From an uncultured Oscillospiraceae bacterium (GTDB lineage: Bacteria; Bacillota; Clostridia; Oscillospirales; Oscillospiraceae), in assembly GCA_905236305.1 (NCBI GenBank), contig CAJOPB010000158.1, positions 1-32,090 on the forward strand: DNA of 32,090 bases. The letters are read 5' to 3'. The notes below the pieces were generated by a model. That model was not told the origin of the DNA, searched no databases, and saw only the letters and a list, made by a program, of their open reading frames with translations. Made by a program: the position numbers and the translations under genes. This document shows, one piece after another, positions 172 through 32,090 of the stretch (position 1 is the stretch's first letter; every line of letters begins with the position of its first letter).

Positions 172-861
172 ATGAAGGAAAAAACAAAAACCATTGCGGT
201 TGCGCTGGACGGCCCTTCCGGCGCGGGGAAAAGCTCTGTCGCAAGGGCAGTTGCCGCAGCGTTTCATTTTATATATGTGGATACCGGGGCAATTTACAGA
301 ACAGTCGGGCTGGCGGTACATAACCGCGGTCTGAGCTCCCGGGACGCGGCGGGAATTGCGGCGCTTCTGCCGTCGCTGGAGATCGACCTGCGATATGATC
401 CGGCGGGAAACCAGAGAATGCTTTTGAACGGGAACGACGTTTCTGAAGCGATTCGGACGCCGGAGATTTCACTGTATGCCTCGGATGTTTCCGCGCTGCC
501 GGCGGTTCGGGAATTTCTTCTGAACAGGCAGCGCGCTCTGGCGGAGACGCAAAATGTGGTTATGGACGGCAGGGACATCGGAACCGTGGTCCTGCCGGAG
601 GCGGAGGTCAAAATATTCCTGACCGCGAGCGCCCAGGCACGCGCGCAGCGCCGGTGGAAGGAATTGGAGGAGAAGGGCGTTGACACCACCTTCGATGCGG
701 TGCTGCGGGATATTATGTATCGGGACGAGCAGGATATGACCCGTTCCGCTGCACCCTTGAAGGCGGCGGAGGACGCCGTGCAGGTGGATACCAGCGAATT
801 GAGCTTCGACGAGAGCGTTGCCGCGGTAAGCGCAATTATCCGGGAAAAGACCGGACTATGA
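172..861 (+). CDS. cmk: Cytidylate kinase
   Basis: Transfers phosphate from ATP to CMP or dCMP in the cytosol, for nucleotide and CDP-lipid synthesis. The 229-aa length is normal for the family. The P-loop is GPSGAGKS (residues 13-20), followed by VDTGAIYR in the CMP-binding region and a DGRDIGTVVLPEA motif typical of Cmk. The ATG at 172 follows a strong GAGGAGG about 8 bases upstream. The stop overlaps the next start as ATGA, so the two genes are translationally coupled. Many Clostridia have plsC between cmk and ispH; it is absent here. No clear sigma-A promoter was found in 1-171, so transcription may start outside the window or within the repeat DNA just upstream. Confidence 0.97.
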   Translation: MKEKTKTIAVALDGPSGAGKSSVARAVAAAFHFIYVDTGAIYRTVGLAVHNRGLSSRDAAGIAALLPSLEIDLRYDPAGNQRMLLNGNDVSEAIRTPEISLYASDVSALPAVREFLLNRQRALAETQNVVMDGRDIGTVVLPEAEVKIFLTASAQARAQRRWKELEEKGVDTTFDAVLRDIMYRDEQDMTRSAAPLKAAEDAVQVDTSELSFDESVAAVSAIIREKTGL

Positions 862-2963
862 AGGCGTTTCGCATTGCCAAAAGCGCCGGCTTCTGCGCCG
901 GCGTCGCCCGGTCGGTCGCGATGGCCGAACGGGCATTGCAGAGATATGGCCGGGTTTACTGCCTGGGAGAGCTGGTGCACAACCGGGATGAGGTTGCAAG
1001 GCTGGCGGCGCTGGGAATGATACAGGTTGACCGGGCGGAGGAGATTCCCCCGGGGGCCGCGGTTTTGCTGCGCGCCCACGGAGAGGGCAGGGAGGTATAT
1101 GAGCACCTGCGCGCCAGACAGGCGGTAATTGTTGACACCACCTGCAAAAAAGTGGAGCGGATTCATAAAATTGCCGCAGAGGAGCGGGAGAAGGGGCGCA
1201 GCGTGATCATTTTCGGTGATCCGGAGCACCCCGAGGTGCGGGGAATCCTGGGCTGGAGCGGTCCTGCCGCGGTGGTAAAAAGTCCTGCGGAGCTGGAAAA
1301 ATATCTGTCAGACCCCCAAAAAATCTCAGAAAACGGCGTTTCAATTGTCTTTCAGAGCACCCAGACGCAAAATAATTTTAAATTTTCTGAAAAAATCGCA
1401 AAAAAATGGTGTACAAACGGGGAATTATTTGATACAATATGTCTTGCTACCCAAATCAGACAGGCGGAGGCGAGTGACCTTGCCGAAACGTGCGACGCCG
1501 TTGTGGTGATCGGCGGACGGCACAGTGCCAACAGCAGGCATCTGGCTGACATTTGCGCGGAAAAATGCGGAGCAGTCTTTTTCATCGAAAATGCGATGTC
1601 ACTGGACACTTCCGTTTTGGTGGCTTATGATACCATTGGTATCACCGCAGGTGCTTCCGTGCCGCCGCGGATCATGAAGGAGGTAATACAAAAGATGAGC
1701 GACGAATTGAAAGAAAAAGTGGATGCCGGCACTCCGGCGGCAGAGACCGCGCCTGCAGACGAGGCGGAAAAGAGTTTTGCGGAGTTGTTGGAGGATTCCA
1801 TAAAAACCATATATAACGGAGATGTTGTCAAAGGTATCGTTGCAGCCATTACCCCGACAGAAGTGACAGTTGACCTGGGGACCAAGCATTCGGGCTATAT
1901 TCCCGTTGAGGAATTTGAGGACGACAACGGCACCAGGATTGAGGATCTGATCCATGTTGGAGACACGGTAGAGGCCAGCGTTGTTCGCGTGAATGATGTC
2001 GAGGGCACCGTGATGCTCTCCAAGAGACGTCTTGACGCAGTAAAGAACTGGGACGACATTGAGGCTGCCTGTGAAAATGAGACGATCGTCGAGGGCGTTG
2101 TCACTGAGGAGAACAAGGGCGGTATCGTAGTAAAGGTAAAGGGCCTGCGGGTGTTTGTACCTGCTTCTCAGTCCGGCCTGCCCCGCGATGCAGAGATGAG
2201 CCAGCTGCTCAAGCAGAAGGTTCAGCTGTATATCACCGAGGTCAACAAGGCGCGCAAGAGAATCGTGGGCTCCATTCGCCTGGTGGCGGCCAAGGCCCGT
2301 CGGGAGAACATCGCCCGCATTTGGGACGAGATCGAGATCGGCAAGCGGTATCATGGTACCGTCAAGTCCCTCACCAGCTACGGCGCATTTGTGGACATCG
2401 GCGGTGTGGACGGCATGGTGCATGTCTCCGAGCTGAGCTGGAAGCGGATTACGAAGCCTGCGGATGTGGTCTCGGTTGGAGACGAGATCGAGGTTTATGT
2501 GATCAACTTCGACAAGGAGACGCGCAAGATCTCCTTGGGCTACAAGGACCCCAATGCCAATCCCTGGGAGCAGTTTATGTCCCAGTACAAGGTGGGCGAT
2601 GTCGCCTCCGTGCGCGTCGTCAAGCTGATGACCTTCGGCGCGTTTGCAGAGATCGTACCGGGTGTTGACGGCTTGATCCATATTTCCCAGATTGCCAATC
2701 GCCGGATCGGCAAGCCTGACGAGGTCCTCGCTGTGGATGATGTAGTGGATGTGAAGATCACTGCCATCGACGAGGAAAAGCGCAAGGTGTCTCTGAGTAT
2801 TCGTGCGCTGAGCGAGCCCGCTCCCGCGCCTGCCCGGTCCTTTGCCCGCGACGAGGAGGATGAGCCCGAGGAGCGCCCGGTTGTCGCGGAAAGCGACGCG
2901 CTGGTTTATGAGGTCTCCGAGACCGGCGAAACCAAGGGTATTGCGCCTGAAGTGGAAGAATAA
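858..2963 (+). CDS. ispH-rpsA: Fusion of IspH (HMBPP reductase) with ribosomal protein S1
   Basis: A 701-aa two-part protein. Residues 1-285 are 4-hydroxy-3-methylbut-2-enyl diphosphate reductase, the last MEP-pathway step, making IPP and DMAPP with a 4Fe-4S cluster. The three cluster cysteines are C13, C96 and C195. Substrate-binding H41, H74, H124 and E126 are present, and the SxN and SxP motifs fall near residues 223-225 and 267-269. After an Ala/Glu linker (about 286-312) come four S1 OB-fold repeats at roughly 315-392, 407-475, 494-562 and 578-648, then an acidic tail. The S1 part resembles the short four-repeat S1 of Gram-positives, which helps mRNA bind the 30S subunit. This fusion is known in Clostridia. 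The frame is continuous through the join. Start overlaps the cmk stop. Confidence 0.96.
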   Translation: MKAFRIAKSAGFCAGVARSVAMAERALQRYGRVYCLGELVHNRDEVARLAALGMIQVDRAEEIPPGAAVLLRAHGEGREVYEHLRARQAVIVDTTCKKVERIHKIAAEEREKGRSVIIFGDPEHPEVRGILGWSGPAAVVKSPAELEKYLSDPQKISENGVSIVFQSTQTQNNFKFSEKIAKKWCTNGELFDTICLATQIRQAEASDLAETCDAVVVIGGRHSANSRHLADICAEKCGAVFFIENAMSLDTSVLVAYDTIGITAGASVPPRIMKEVIQKMSDELKEKVDAGTPAAETAPADEAEKSFAELLEDSIKTIYNGDVVKGIVAAITPTEVTVDLGTKHSGYIPVEEFEDDNGTRIEDLIHVGDTVEASVVRVNDVEGTVMLSKRRLDAVKNWDDIEAACENETIVEGVVTEENKGGIVVKVKGLRVFVPASQSGLPRDAEMSQLLKQKVQLYITEVNKARKRIVGSIRLVAAKARRENIARIWDEIEIGKRYHGTVKSLTSYGAFVDIGGVDGMVHVSELSWKRITKPADVVSVGDEIEVYVINFDKETRKISLGYKDPNANPWEQFMSQYKVGDVASVRVVKLMTFGAFAEIVPGVDGLIHISQIANRRIGKPDEVLAVDDVVDVKITAIDEEKRKVSLSIRALSEPAPAPARSFARDEEDEPEERPVVAESDALVYEVSETGETKGIAPEVEE

Positions 2964-21177: not shown

Positions 21178-22827
21178 TTATTTTTCAAAGGAATCGAGGC
21201 TGCCGCGGGTGATCAGTCTGCCGTTTCGGCGGCTGAACAGCACAATGCCGTCGCCGCGGAAGCCAAAGCGAATTTTCTGTCCGATGCGGTAGAGAATACC
21301 GCCGAAGACTACGCCGGTCAGCAGAAAGTCCCCGATGCGCACGCGCACGGTGGTCTCCATGCCGGTGGGCATGGCGGAATAGACCTCCCCCTCCAGCGGA
21401 CCGTTGTCAGAAATCTCCAGAAACTCCGGCCGGACACCGAGCACCAGGTCGGCATCCGTCAGCACGGTTTCTTCACCGTAATCCTCCTGCTCGTCCACCC
21501 GGGAGATGTGGTAACGAAACACCGTATCCTTGTTGCCCTTCTCCACATAGCCCTTCTGCTGCGCCCGCAGGGCCTCAGCCTCGGACCGTTTCCGGTCTGC
21601 GGCGTCCTGCGCAGCATACCAGGCGTCGAGCTGCAGCGGCTGAGCCGGGGTAAAGCGGCAGGTGTGATTCCCCAGCAGCTGCAGGGAGATATGACTGCCC
21701 TCCTGTGTGCCGCGGGCCTCGATAAAATTGATGGACGGGCTGCCCACAAAGTCTGCCACAAAGGTATTGGCCGGGCTGCCGTAGACGCGCAAAGGCGCTT
21801 CGTATTGCTGAAGGACCCCGTTGTCAATCAGGCAGATCTTTGTCGCCAGCGTCATGGCCTCCATCTGGTCATGGGTCACATAGACAAAGGTGCTGCCGGT
21901 CTCCAGGTGAAGCCGCTGCAGCTCACTGCGCATTTCCAGCCGCAGCTTCGCATCCAGATTGGACAGGGGCTCATCCATGAACAGGACGCTGGGCTCCGGA
22001 GCCAGGGTGCGGGCAATCGCCACCCGCTGCTGCTGCCCGCCGGAGAGCTCCGCCGGATAGCGATCCATGAACATGCCGATTTTGACAATGCGGGAGACAC
22101 GCCGGACGGCCAGGTCAATCTCCTCCGCACTCAGCTTGCGCACAATCCGCAGCGGTTCGCCATCCTTGAGATAGGTGAAGTCCGGGCTCAGCGCGCAGCC
22201 CTCGGCGCGGGCCCGTTCTGCGGCGGCCCGGACGGCCTTGTCCTTTTCCGCCTTGTGTGCCTTTGCGCTCCCTGCCGGGTCCGCGCTCTCGTGCAGTCCG
22301 AGGCCCATCAGCTCCCTGGCTCCGGTCATGGAGATCTCATACCGGTCAATCAGCTTGATCAGGGCCCGGTTCCGGTCCAGCTTTCCGGTCTTGTCCACAC
22401 AATCGCGGATGGTTTTCACCAGCTCCTCCGGGTGCTCCAGGGCCTTGCTGAGCGCGGCGGCCCGGCGTGCCTCCAGGTCGATTTTCGGAAGCGCTTCCCT
22501 GACATTGCTGAGGCCGAAGGAGATGTTCTGGTAGACGGTCATATTGGGCCACAGAGCGTAGTTCTGGAACAGAAAGCCCACCTTCCGCTTGTTCGGAGGG
22601 ACATTGATGCCGGCCTCGGAGTCAAAGACCACTTTGTCGCCGATGGAAATGCGGCCGGAGGTGGGGGACTCCAGGCCCGCGATCATACGAAGGGTCGTGG
22701 TTTTTCCGCAGCCGGAGGGGCCCAAAAGCGTCACAAAGGCATTATCCTCGATGACCAGGTTCAGGTCCTCCACCGCATAGAATTTATCCCAGCGCTTGTT
22801 GATATGCTCCAATGTGATTTTTGGCAT
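21178..22827 (-). CDS. ABC importer ATPase with a large insertion in the helical subdomain
   Basis: A 549-aa ATPase of the MalK/PotA/FbpC type; those are usually 330-380 aa. Motifs: Walker A GPSGCGKT (36-43), Q-loop Q88, signature LSGGQQQR (261-268), Walker B VLFMDEP (281-287), D-loop SNLDA and switch H319. The Q-loop to signature distance is 173 residues, against about 50 in MalK. The extra 120 residues (roughly 107-229) are charged and Ala/Lys/Arg-rich, then the normal sequence resumes as EIDLAVRRVSRIV. A C-terminal TOBE-like region (from about 365) contains another lengthening near 400-450. It starts four bases after the permease stop with TAGGAGG overlapping the permease end. Substrate unknown; iron, polyamine, thiamine and phosphonate importers have the same layout. 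Confidence 0.9.
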   Translation of the reverse strand: MPKITLEHINKRWDKFYAVEDLNLVIEDNAFVTLLGPSGCGKTTTLRMIAGLESPTSGRISIGDKVVFDSEAGINVPPNKRKVGFLFQNYALWPNMTVYQNISFGLSNVREALPKIDLEARRAAALSKALEHPEELVKTIRDCVDKTGKLDRNRALIKLIDRYEISMTGARELMGLGLHESADPAGSAKAHKAEKDKAVRAAAERARAEGCALSPDFTYLKDGEPLRIVRKLSAEEIDLAVRRVSRIVKIGMFMDRYPAELSGGQQQRVAIARTLAPEPSVLFMDEPLSNLDAKLRLEMRSELQRLHLETGSTFVYVTHDQMEAMTLATKICLIDNGVLQQYEAPLRVYGSPANTFVADFVGSPSINFIEARGTQEGSHISLQLLGNHTCRFTPAQPLQLDAWYAAQDAADRKRSEAEALRAQQKGYVEKGNKDTVFRYHISRVDEQEDYGEETVLTDADLVLGVRPEFLEISDNGPLEGEVYSAMPTGMETTVRVRIGDFLLTGVVFGGILYRIGQKIRFGFRGDGIVLFSRRNGRLITRGSLDSFEK

Positions 22828-31151: not shown

Positions 31152-31949
31152 ATGTCCGGACATTCCAAATGGCATAACATACAAAAAACCAAGGGCGCCG
31201 CAGATGCCAAGCGTGCGCAGGCATTTACAAAGATCGCGCGGGAAATGATCGTTGCGGTGAAGGAGGGCGGAAGCGGCGACCCCAACAACAATTCCCGCCT
31301 TGCCACCGTCATCGCAAAAGCAAAGGCCGCCAATATGCCCAATGACAACATCAAGCGCACCATAGACAAGGCGCTGGGCTCCGGCAATACGGACAGCTAC
31401 GAGCGCGTGACCTACGAGGGATACGGTCCCAGCGGCGTAGCGCTGATTGTGGAGGCCATGACGGATAACCGCAACCGCACAGCCAGCGAGGTGCGTCATT
31501 ATTTCGACAAATACGGCGGGAATCTGGGTGCTGCCAACTGCGTCTCCTGGTCCTTCGACCGCAAGGGAGTCATCGTAATCGACAATGAGGACGGCGATTT
31601 GGACGAGGACGCCGTGATGATGGATGCCCTGGACTGCGGCGCGGACGACTTTGAGGCGGAGGAGGGCGCTTTCACCGTATATACCGCCACGGATAACATT
31701 GCCGAGGTGAGTGATGCTCTGGGCGCCAAGGGCTATCATGTGATATCCGCCCAGGAGGAGATGATCCCCCAGCAGGGCTATATTAAGCTCAGCAACCCTG
31801 ACGACGCAAAAAATATGCACACAGTGACAATCATCTCCTGCCCGTTCCGAATCAATTTCAACGGTGATATATGTTTCCCCTCCCGCTGCATATTACAACC
31901 GGAGGGGAAAATGATCCCTGCAAAGGGAAAAAGGCTCCCTGGACTGTGA
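31152..31949 (+). CDS. yebC: YebC/PmpR-family protein with a replaced C-terminus
   Basis: YebC proteins act as transcription regulators or, as shown recently for some, as translation factors that relieve ribosome stalling at proline stretches. Residues 1-222 are a standard YebC: MSGHSKWHNIQKTKGAADAKRAQAFTKIAREM, then NMPNDNIKRTIDKALG, YEGYGPSGVALIVEA, NRTASEVRHYFDKYGGNLG and SAQEEMIPQQGYIKLSNPDDAKNM. At that point families normally continue with about 24 residues of the type LKLIDxLEDxDDVQNVWHNWE. Here the frame instead runs 43 unrelated residues (from about 31818) to a stop at 31947-31949. A fragment coding for that kind of ending lies inverted at 32064-32090. Function may be altered or lost. 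AAGGGGCG precedes the ATG. Confidence 0.85.
   Translation: MSGHSKWHNIQKTKGAADAKRAQAFTKIAREMIVAVKEGGSGDPNNNSRLATVIAKAKAANMPNDNIKRTIDKALGSGNTDSYERVTYEGYGPSGVALIVEAMTDNRNRTASEVRHYFDKYGGNLGAANCVSWSFDRKGVIVIDNEDGDLDEDAVMMDALDCGADDFEAEEGAFTVYTATDNIAEVSDALGAKGYHVISAQEEMIPQQGYIKLSNPDDAKNMHTVTIISCPFRINFNGDICFPSRCILQPEGKMIPAKGKRLPGL
31874..31910. repeat. Inverted repeat inside the altered yebC tail
   Basis: TTTCCCCTCC (31874-31883) pairs perfectly with GGAGGGGAAA (31901-31910) around 17 bases. It lies in the 150-base segment between the yebC break and the inverted DUF4160 piece, so it could mark a recombination site; this is only a suggestion from position. Confidence 0.5.
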
Positions 31950-31966
31950 AACAGATCAGGTACCAT

Positions 31967-32056
31967 ATATAAGGCGTGAATATGACTGGGTTCATGTTCT
32001 TTCGGCTTATAGAACATTTTGATAATAAACCGGAATATAACAGACTCCTGGACCAA
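31967..32056 (-). pseudogene. Truncated DUF4160-like N-terminus
   Basis: Read on the minus strand from a TTG at 32056, the first 30 residues (VIFRFIIKMFYKPKEHEPSH then IHALY) match the N-terminal pattern of DUF4160 proteins, which have a PPHxHAxY-like motif. After HALY the similarity stops, where the family continues with a Gly-Glu-Tyr-type strand. The frame runs on open to 31778 only because it reads through the yebC tail region backwards. DUF4160 genes often sit beside DUF2442 genes in presumed toxin-antitoxin pairs. Recognition is from memory of the motif. Confidence 0.55.
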
Positions 32057-32063
32057 TATCCGC

Positions 32064-32090
32064 CTACTCCGCGTCCTCCCAGTTGTGCCA
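32064..32090 (-). pseudogene. Inverted fragment coding for a YebC-type C-terminus (cut by window end)
   Basis: On the minus strand the last 27 bases read Trp-His-Asn-Trp-Glu-Asp-Ala-Glu-stop (stop at 32066-32064). YebC proteins of Clostridia commonly end in a (V)WHNWE-type sequence, the very part missing from the gene at 31152. It ends seven bases before the DUF4160-like start, so in another arrangement yebC would be followed directly by that gene. Confidence 0.7.

Follow-up and report, generated by a model that had tools for sequence, protein, structure and literature searches.

The window, that is the whole stretch of 32,090 nucleotides that was analysed, is contig C158 of a 78%-complete genome in 244 contigs (G000), and position 32090 is the last base of the contig. 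The gene yebC starts at 31152 on the plus strand, and its body (31152–31819) comprises codons 1–222 and two bases that fit the next codon. Residues 1–222 are identical (222/222) to those of an intact YebC protein, P0001, which is found on two contigs of other assemblies, the longest being 95,405 bases, and codon 222 ends at 31817, the point up to which the first-pass annotation had called the gene normal. The best YebC matches, by the names given in the source, are mostly Oscillospiraceae or Ruminococcaceae MAGs, and the same is true for most of the nearest named loci. The N-terminal domain is recognised by Pfam (PF20772, E 1.7e-29, residues 5–76), and the part holding the second and third YebC domains is incomplete, with profile positions 1–141 of 160 covered (PF01709). 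The DNA similarity to five out of six relatives of the same genus stops at 31819, and to the sixth, G002, at 31804. Elsewhere in the window, one open reading frame of 701 residues (858–2960, plus strand) has LytB (IspH) fused to four S1 domains. In an ABC transporter ATPase of 549 residues (21181–22827, minus strand) the Pfam match to ABC_tran falls into two parts, as though interrupted by an insert.

After the body of yebC the frame continues through 43 foreign codons and a stop (31818–31949, plus strand; the stop at 31947–31949), which replace the last 24 residues of YebC. This switch to unrelated residues had been noticed at first pass and is read directly from the frame; the extension is absent from P0001 and from the aligned relatives. 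The resulting chimeric protein has 265 amino acids. In a protein database clustered at 90% identity it was not found among the best 120 of 7567 matches; an exact copy would head this ranking. A stretch of 147 bases (31820–31966, here called segment X) separates the yebC body from the inverted DUF4160 piece described below. It has a G+C content of 48%, as compared to 57% in the yebC body, and a short hairpin (31874–31910) with 15-base arms that are 87% complementary. Segment X had no significant DNA match in 99 relatives (E up to 10), phages, plasmids or Rfam, nor in 468,267 bases of its own genome, being single-copy in the part searched. A 37-residue translation of this region had no significant match in plasmids. 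When a minus-strand open reading frame of 92 residues was compared with 5.8 billion proteins, the DUF4160 piece alone matched, and the longer alignments, to P0241 and P0273, have little identity past the residues HALY.

The last 27 bases of the contig (32064–32090), read on the minus strand, give W H N W E D A E and a stop. These are exactly the last eight residues of P0001, as expected from the first-pass suggestion of an inverted YebC ending, and related YebC proteins also share them. Over the last 26 bases the identity to the yebC ends of G004, G006, G010 and G042 is 96%, and the inverted 3' end with its flank (32045–32090, minus strand) is 85% identical over 46 bases to the yebC tail copy of G005. 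Next to it, also inverted relative to yebC, lies a piece of a DUF4160 gene (31967–32023, minus strand) with 86% identity over 57 bases to the DUF4160 gene behind yebC in G003 (E 1.7e-12). It had been described as a DUF4160-like start in the same inverted sense; the orientation and the kinship hold, but the likeness is weaker than stated, as about 21 residues fit, the Pfam match (profile positions 2–22 of 65, E 0.0074, 16.9 bits) is below the 23-bit cut-off, and the usual start (MPEISRFYG or similar) was not found in the piece. In two genomes of the same genus, G003 and G005, a DUF4160 gene lies directly behind yebC, followed by DUF2442, and G001 retains DUF2442 and a short remnant of DUF4160 downstream of yebC. 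The tail and the DUF4160 piece in the window have the mutual order seen in G003 and G005 and are inverted together. Since DUF4160 directly follows yebC in these two genomes, the comparison suggests that the tail and the piece are likely local DNA. The spacing between them, about 40 bases as compared to about 165 in G003, matches no relative.

It had been proposed to look for the missing yebC codons elsewhere, for a recombinase gene, for flanking inverted repeats and for the same arrangement in related genomes. With up to 3 mismatches neither the missing codons nor a second yebC tail was found in the 78%-complete genome; the one tail in it is the inverted one, and no direct tail copy was found downstream of the window yebC. 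Searches with the tail pattern, the missing codons, DUF4160, DUF2442 and the G005 downstream region recognised no continuation of the locus in this genome, the last of these queries having its best matches on contigs C30 and C5. The one DUF4160–DUF2442 pair found, at the end of contig C37, was considered as the missing partner and rejected because it is of a different subtype. When 29 other open reading frames of the window were scanned with Pfam, no recombinase domain was found, and two of the frames had no match to any family; a recombinase gene may lie past 32090. The genome has no homologue of the tyrosine integrase of G380, described below, at E 1e-60, and there is no arm repeat at the window end. 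Inverted pairs do occur around the visible joint, but they are short, and the one exact pair (I6; 31756–31765 and 31830–31839) is 10 bases, judged by estimate to be within chance, and was dropped as the repeat that made the joint. An inverted match of 8 bases, AATATGCA at the joint and TGCATATT at 31887, was likewise judged within chance by estimate, and was dropped because the bases that follow it do not fit copying. As for related genomes, an inverted yebC tail was found in none of 80 named yebC loci (75 of them with at least 1 kb behind the gene).

We also examined 73 other contig ends of the assembly for terminal fold-backs. Eight were masked, and none of the 65 readable ends folds back, in a test that detects just the folds overlapping their own contig; one inverted pair with separate arms, 21 bases in L214, was not terminal. 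Thus, a fault of this kind is not general in this assembly. A separate observation at the contig ends is that several of them consist of short palindromic repeats (L227, L228 and L229, corresponding to C16–C18, and also L232, L242 and L245). At least the last 79 bases are common to C16 and C17, and at least 31 of them to C18. These repeats resemble small interspersed elements at which the assembly breaks off.

Comparison of family genomes indicates that integrative elements of up to about 10 kb attach at the 3' end of yebC, which is better supported than an inversion in the window. In a draw of 400 family genomes a yebC-tail query of 101 bases matched 286, and 12 had two matches. In eight of these twelve (G005, G081, G174, G195, G201, G216, G224 and G380) a full or partial direct copy of the tail lies behind an intact yebC on the same contig; as to the remaining four, the matches in G245 are on two contigs, G166 has a single yebC in the stretch taken, and G354 and G381 were left out. 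The direct copies at the element ends are up to 75 nt long and 0.8 to 10 kb apart from the gene: 75 nt at 100% identity and 10.1 kb in G174 (L267), 71 nt at 98.6% and 9.9 kb in G195 (L266), 43 nt at 100% and 5.3 kb in G380 (L253), and 42 nt at 100% and 1.3 kb in G201 (L252), with further examples in G081 (L092) and G005 (L032). Among the 80 named loci a direct copy was found downstream in 4, at least three of which are the same contigs as G001, G003 and G216, and no copy was inverted or upstream. In G245 (L120/L121, contigs C43 and C12) an intact yebC lies close to the end of one contig and an orphan tail close to the end of another. Ahead of the orphan tail is a 45-residue fragment, to which Pfam alone assigns no family; by eye, 44 of its residues agree with the C-terminus of the resolvase in G380. 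Similar DNA is found behind the intact yebC and the orphan tail of G245, as if occupied and empty sites had been assembled together. A literature check, which was not exhaustive, found no report linking yebC, an integration site and an integrase. In viral contigs one exact pattern for yebC tails had no match, and for relatives of the integrase 11 stretches matched the pattern, none of them confirmed.

In G380 yebC is followed directly by a tyrosine recombinase (PF00589, E 8.2e-29), and a resolvase (PF00239, E 7.8e-30) is encoded close to the far end of the element. Of repeats resembling TGYGACRTACA (at most 2 mismatches), the left 300 bases of the element contain three and the right 300 one, where about 0.2 are expected each, and the middle contains 4, as compared to 4.0 expected. 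Such repeats are also seen in G201, G081, G005 and at the right end of G245, and none were found in G003, G001 or at the window end. In G174 the integrase and the resolvase are placed as in G380, with an ArsP_1 permease and an SBF-family transporter between them. This stretch (L267, 3568–6839), which also encodes a DUF2703/ferredoxin-like protein, looks like arsenic-resistance cargo. G081 has an N-terminal integrase remnant (Pfam E 1.6e-4, below the cut-off) and a NUMOD4/HNH protein. Searching 250 family genomes with the G380 integrase (E up to 1e-60) found 8 matches, distributed over 7 genomes; three (G195, G251 and G174) are directly behind an intact yebC and five are not, and in G251 (L257) the 4,085 bases that remain before the contig end showed no tail copy. 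In G005 the DUF4160–DUF2442 cassette carries two arm-type repeats on the left and ends on the right with a 52-nt copy of the tail, which suggests that the pair is likely cargo of a decayed integrative element. The yebC tail copies of G003 and G001 are shorter or more decayed. In two ruminal MAGs (L130 and L138) an insert of 1.5–1.6 kb, encoding a putative adenosine-deaminase-like protein, lies behind yebC and is followed by a partial yebC tail copy.

Taken as sequence, the last 271 bases of the contig are probably a fold-back misjoin at the contig end and not a genetic switch. The path would leave yebC after base 31819, jump to the opposite strand at a point about 320 bases downstream, and from there run back in the direction of yebC as far as the contig end. 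It would thereby pass through segment X, which would be native downstream DNA, then a piece of the decayed DUF4160 cassette and then yebC's own last eight codons, stopping about 46 bases short of closing onto the joint. Such a join may have been made in library making or in assembly, for example from one or two fold-back reads at a thinly covered end, and the living cell would have a normal yebC. A misjoin is likelier than a switch because an intact YebC with the same residues as far as the break occurs in other assemblies, so that the normal protein sequence across the joint is known. The joint is also within a few hundred bases of the contig end, as a misjoin predicts, and the chimeric end named as a serious alternative in the first-pass annotation was the right one to keep in mind. 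The truncated PF01709 match, the failure to find the chimera among its best matches, the lack of a recombinase in the other window frames and of inverted tails in the named loci, and the native mutual order of the tail and the DUF4160 piece all point the same way. Against it, no other readable contig end folds back, although such a fault need not recur, segment X has no match, the spacing between tail and DUF4160 piece fits no relative, a run of 271 bases beyond the joint is long for stray reads, and the joint is flanked by the pair I6 of 10 bases, judged to be chance.

A real inversion had been put forward as the simplest reading. It would be local, of at least about 320 bases, running from yebC codon 222 into a decayed DUF4160 element and leaving a YebC that is truncated and extended by 43 foreign residues. 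It now seems unlikely. The joint inversion of the tail and the DUF4160 piece would agree with it, as would the role of the yebC locus as an attachment site in related genera and the fact that the contig stops inside the yebC tail, the stretch that integrative elements duplicate. But an inversion has two joints and just one can be seen, since the contig ends at 32090. The intact allele is present in other assemblies, none of the 80 named loci has the tail inverted, and neither a recombinase in the 29 frames, an integrase relative in the genome at E 1e-60 nor an arm repeat at the window end was found. The break at codon 222 is also upstream of the left edge of the tail copies in G380, G201 and G224 (about codon 229–235), and the copy in G081 begins near codon 219, close to the break. 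The inversion still keeps some of the probability because none of the 65 readable ends folds back, segment X has no match and 271 bases are much for stray reads. If real, it would probably be an accident at a recombination-prone locus and not a switch; nothing was found in support of the suggestion that it is reversible. It is a doubtful proposal that the joint is real in the specific sense of a decayed element inverted at a hotspot of tyrosine-integrase insertion, with the last 24 YebC residues swapped for 43 new ones, but if true, mobile DNA would here rewrite the C-terminus of a conserved translation or transcription factor.

The contig end could also join yebC to DNA of another strain or species that brings its own yebC tail and DUF4160 piece. 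The lower G+C content of segment X, and the fact that neither this segment nor the tail spacing matches any relative, would suit such a chimera, but the ending WHNWEDAE is exactly that of P0001, even if related YebC proteins share it, and we consider this origin improbable. Very improbable is an insertion of mobile DNA at codon 222, with segment X as its end and the inverted tail and DUF4160 piece carried along by chance. It is conceivable in so far as elements sit at the 3' end of yebC in relatives and the G081 copy begins near the break codon, but those elements leave yebC intact, and the 271 bases have neither integrase nor arm repeat, and segment X is single-copy in the part of the genome searched.

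In this family integrative elements duplicate the 3' end of yebC, with cargo such as an ArsP-type permease, an HNH endonuclease or, likely, the DUF4160–DUF2442 pair, and annotators can look for elements directly behind the gene. Being duplicated, the attachment site is also a place where contigs may break or be misjoined. A gene that breaks off less than a read length from the end of a contig should be seen in a second assembly before the break is given a biological reading.

Compared with the YebC/TACO1 family (PF20772 and PF01709; solved relatives 1kon, 1lfp and 4f3q), residues 1–222 in the window are an ordinary YebC, but 43 foreign residues take the place of the last 24. The DUF4160–DUF2442 pair, whose members are named together in three papers, two of them with toxin-antitoxin in the title, follows yebC in G003 and G005, whereas the window has about 20 DUF4160 codons and no DUF2442. 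Fold-back chimeras, which are inverted and palindromic and arise in library making or whole-genome amplification, are described in PMC6218980 and PMC13141652. The window resembles them in that DNA from nearby is attached in inverted sense to the forward strand at the end of a contig, but differs in that the contig ends too early to include the closing arm of the palindrome. SGI1 at trmE is described in PMC8409611 as an integrative element attached to the 3' end of a conserved gene. The window, with an inverted tail only and neither integrase nor direct repeat, is unlike elements of this type. The elements in G380, G195 and G174 use yebC and not trmE, but they are otherwise similar to SGI1: the gene stays intact, a tyrosine integrase lies next to it, and its 3' end is repeated directly at either end of the element.
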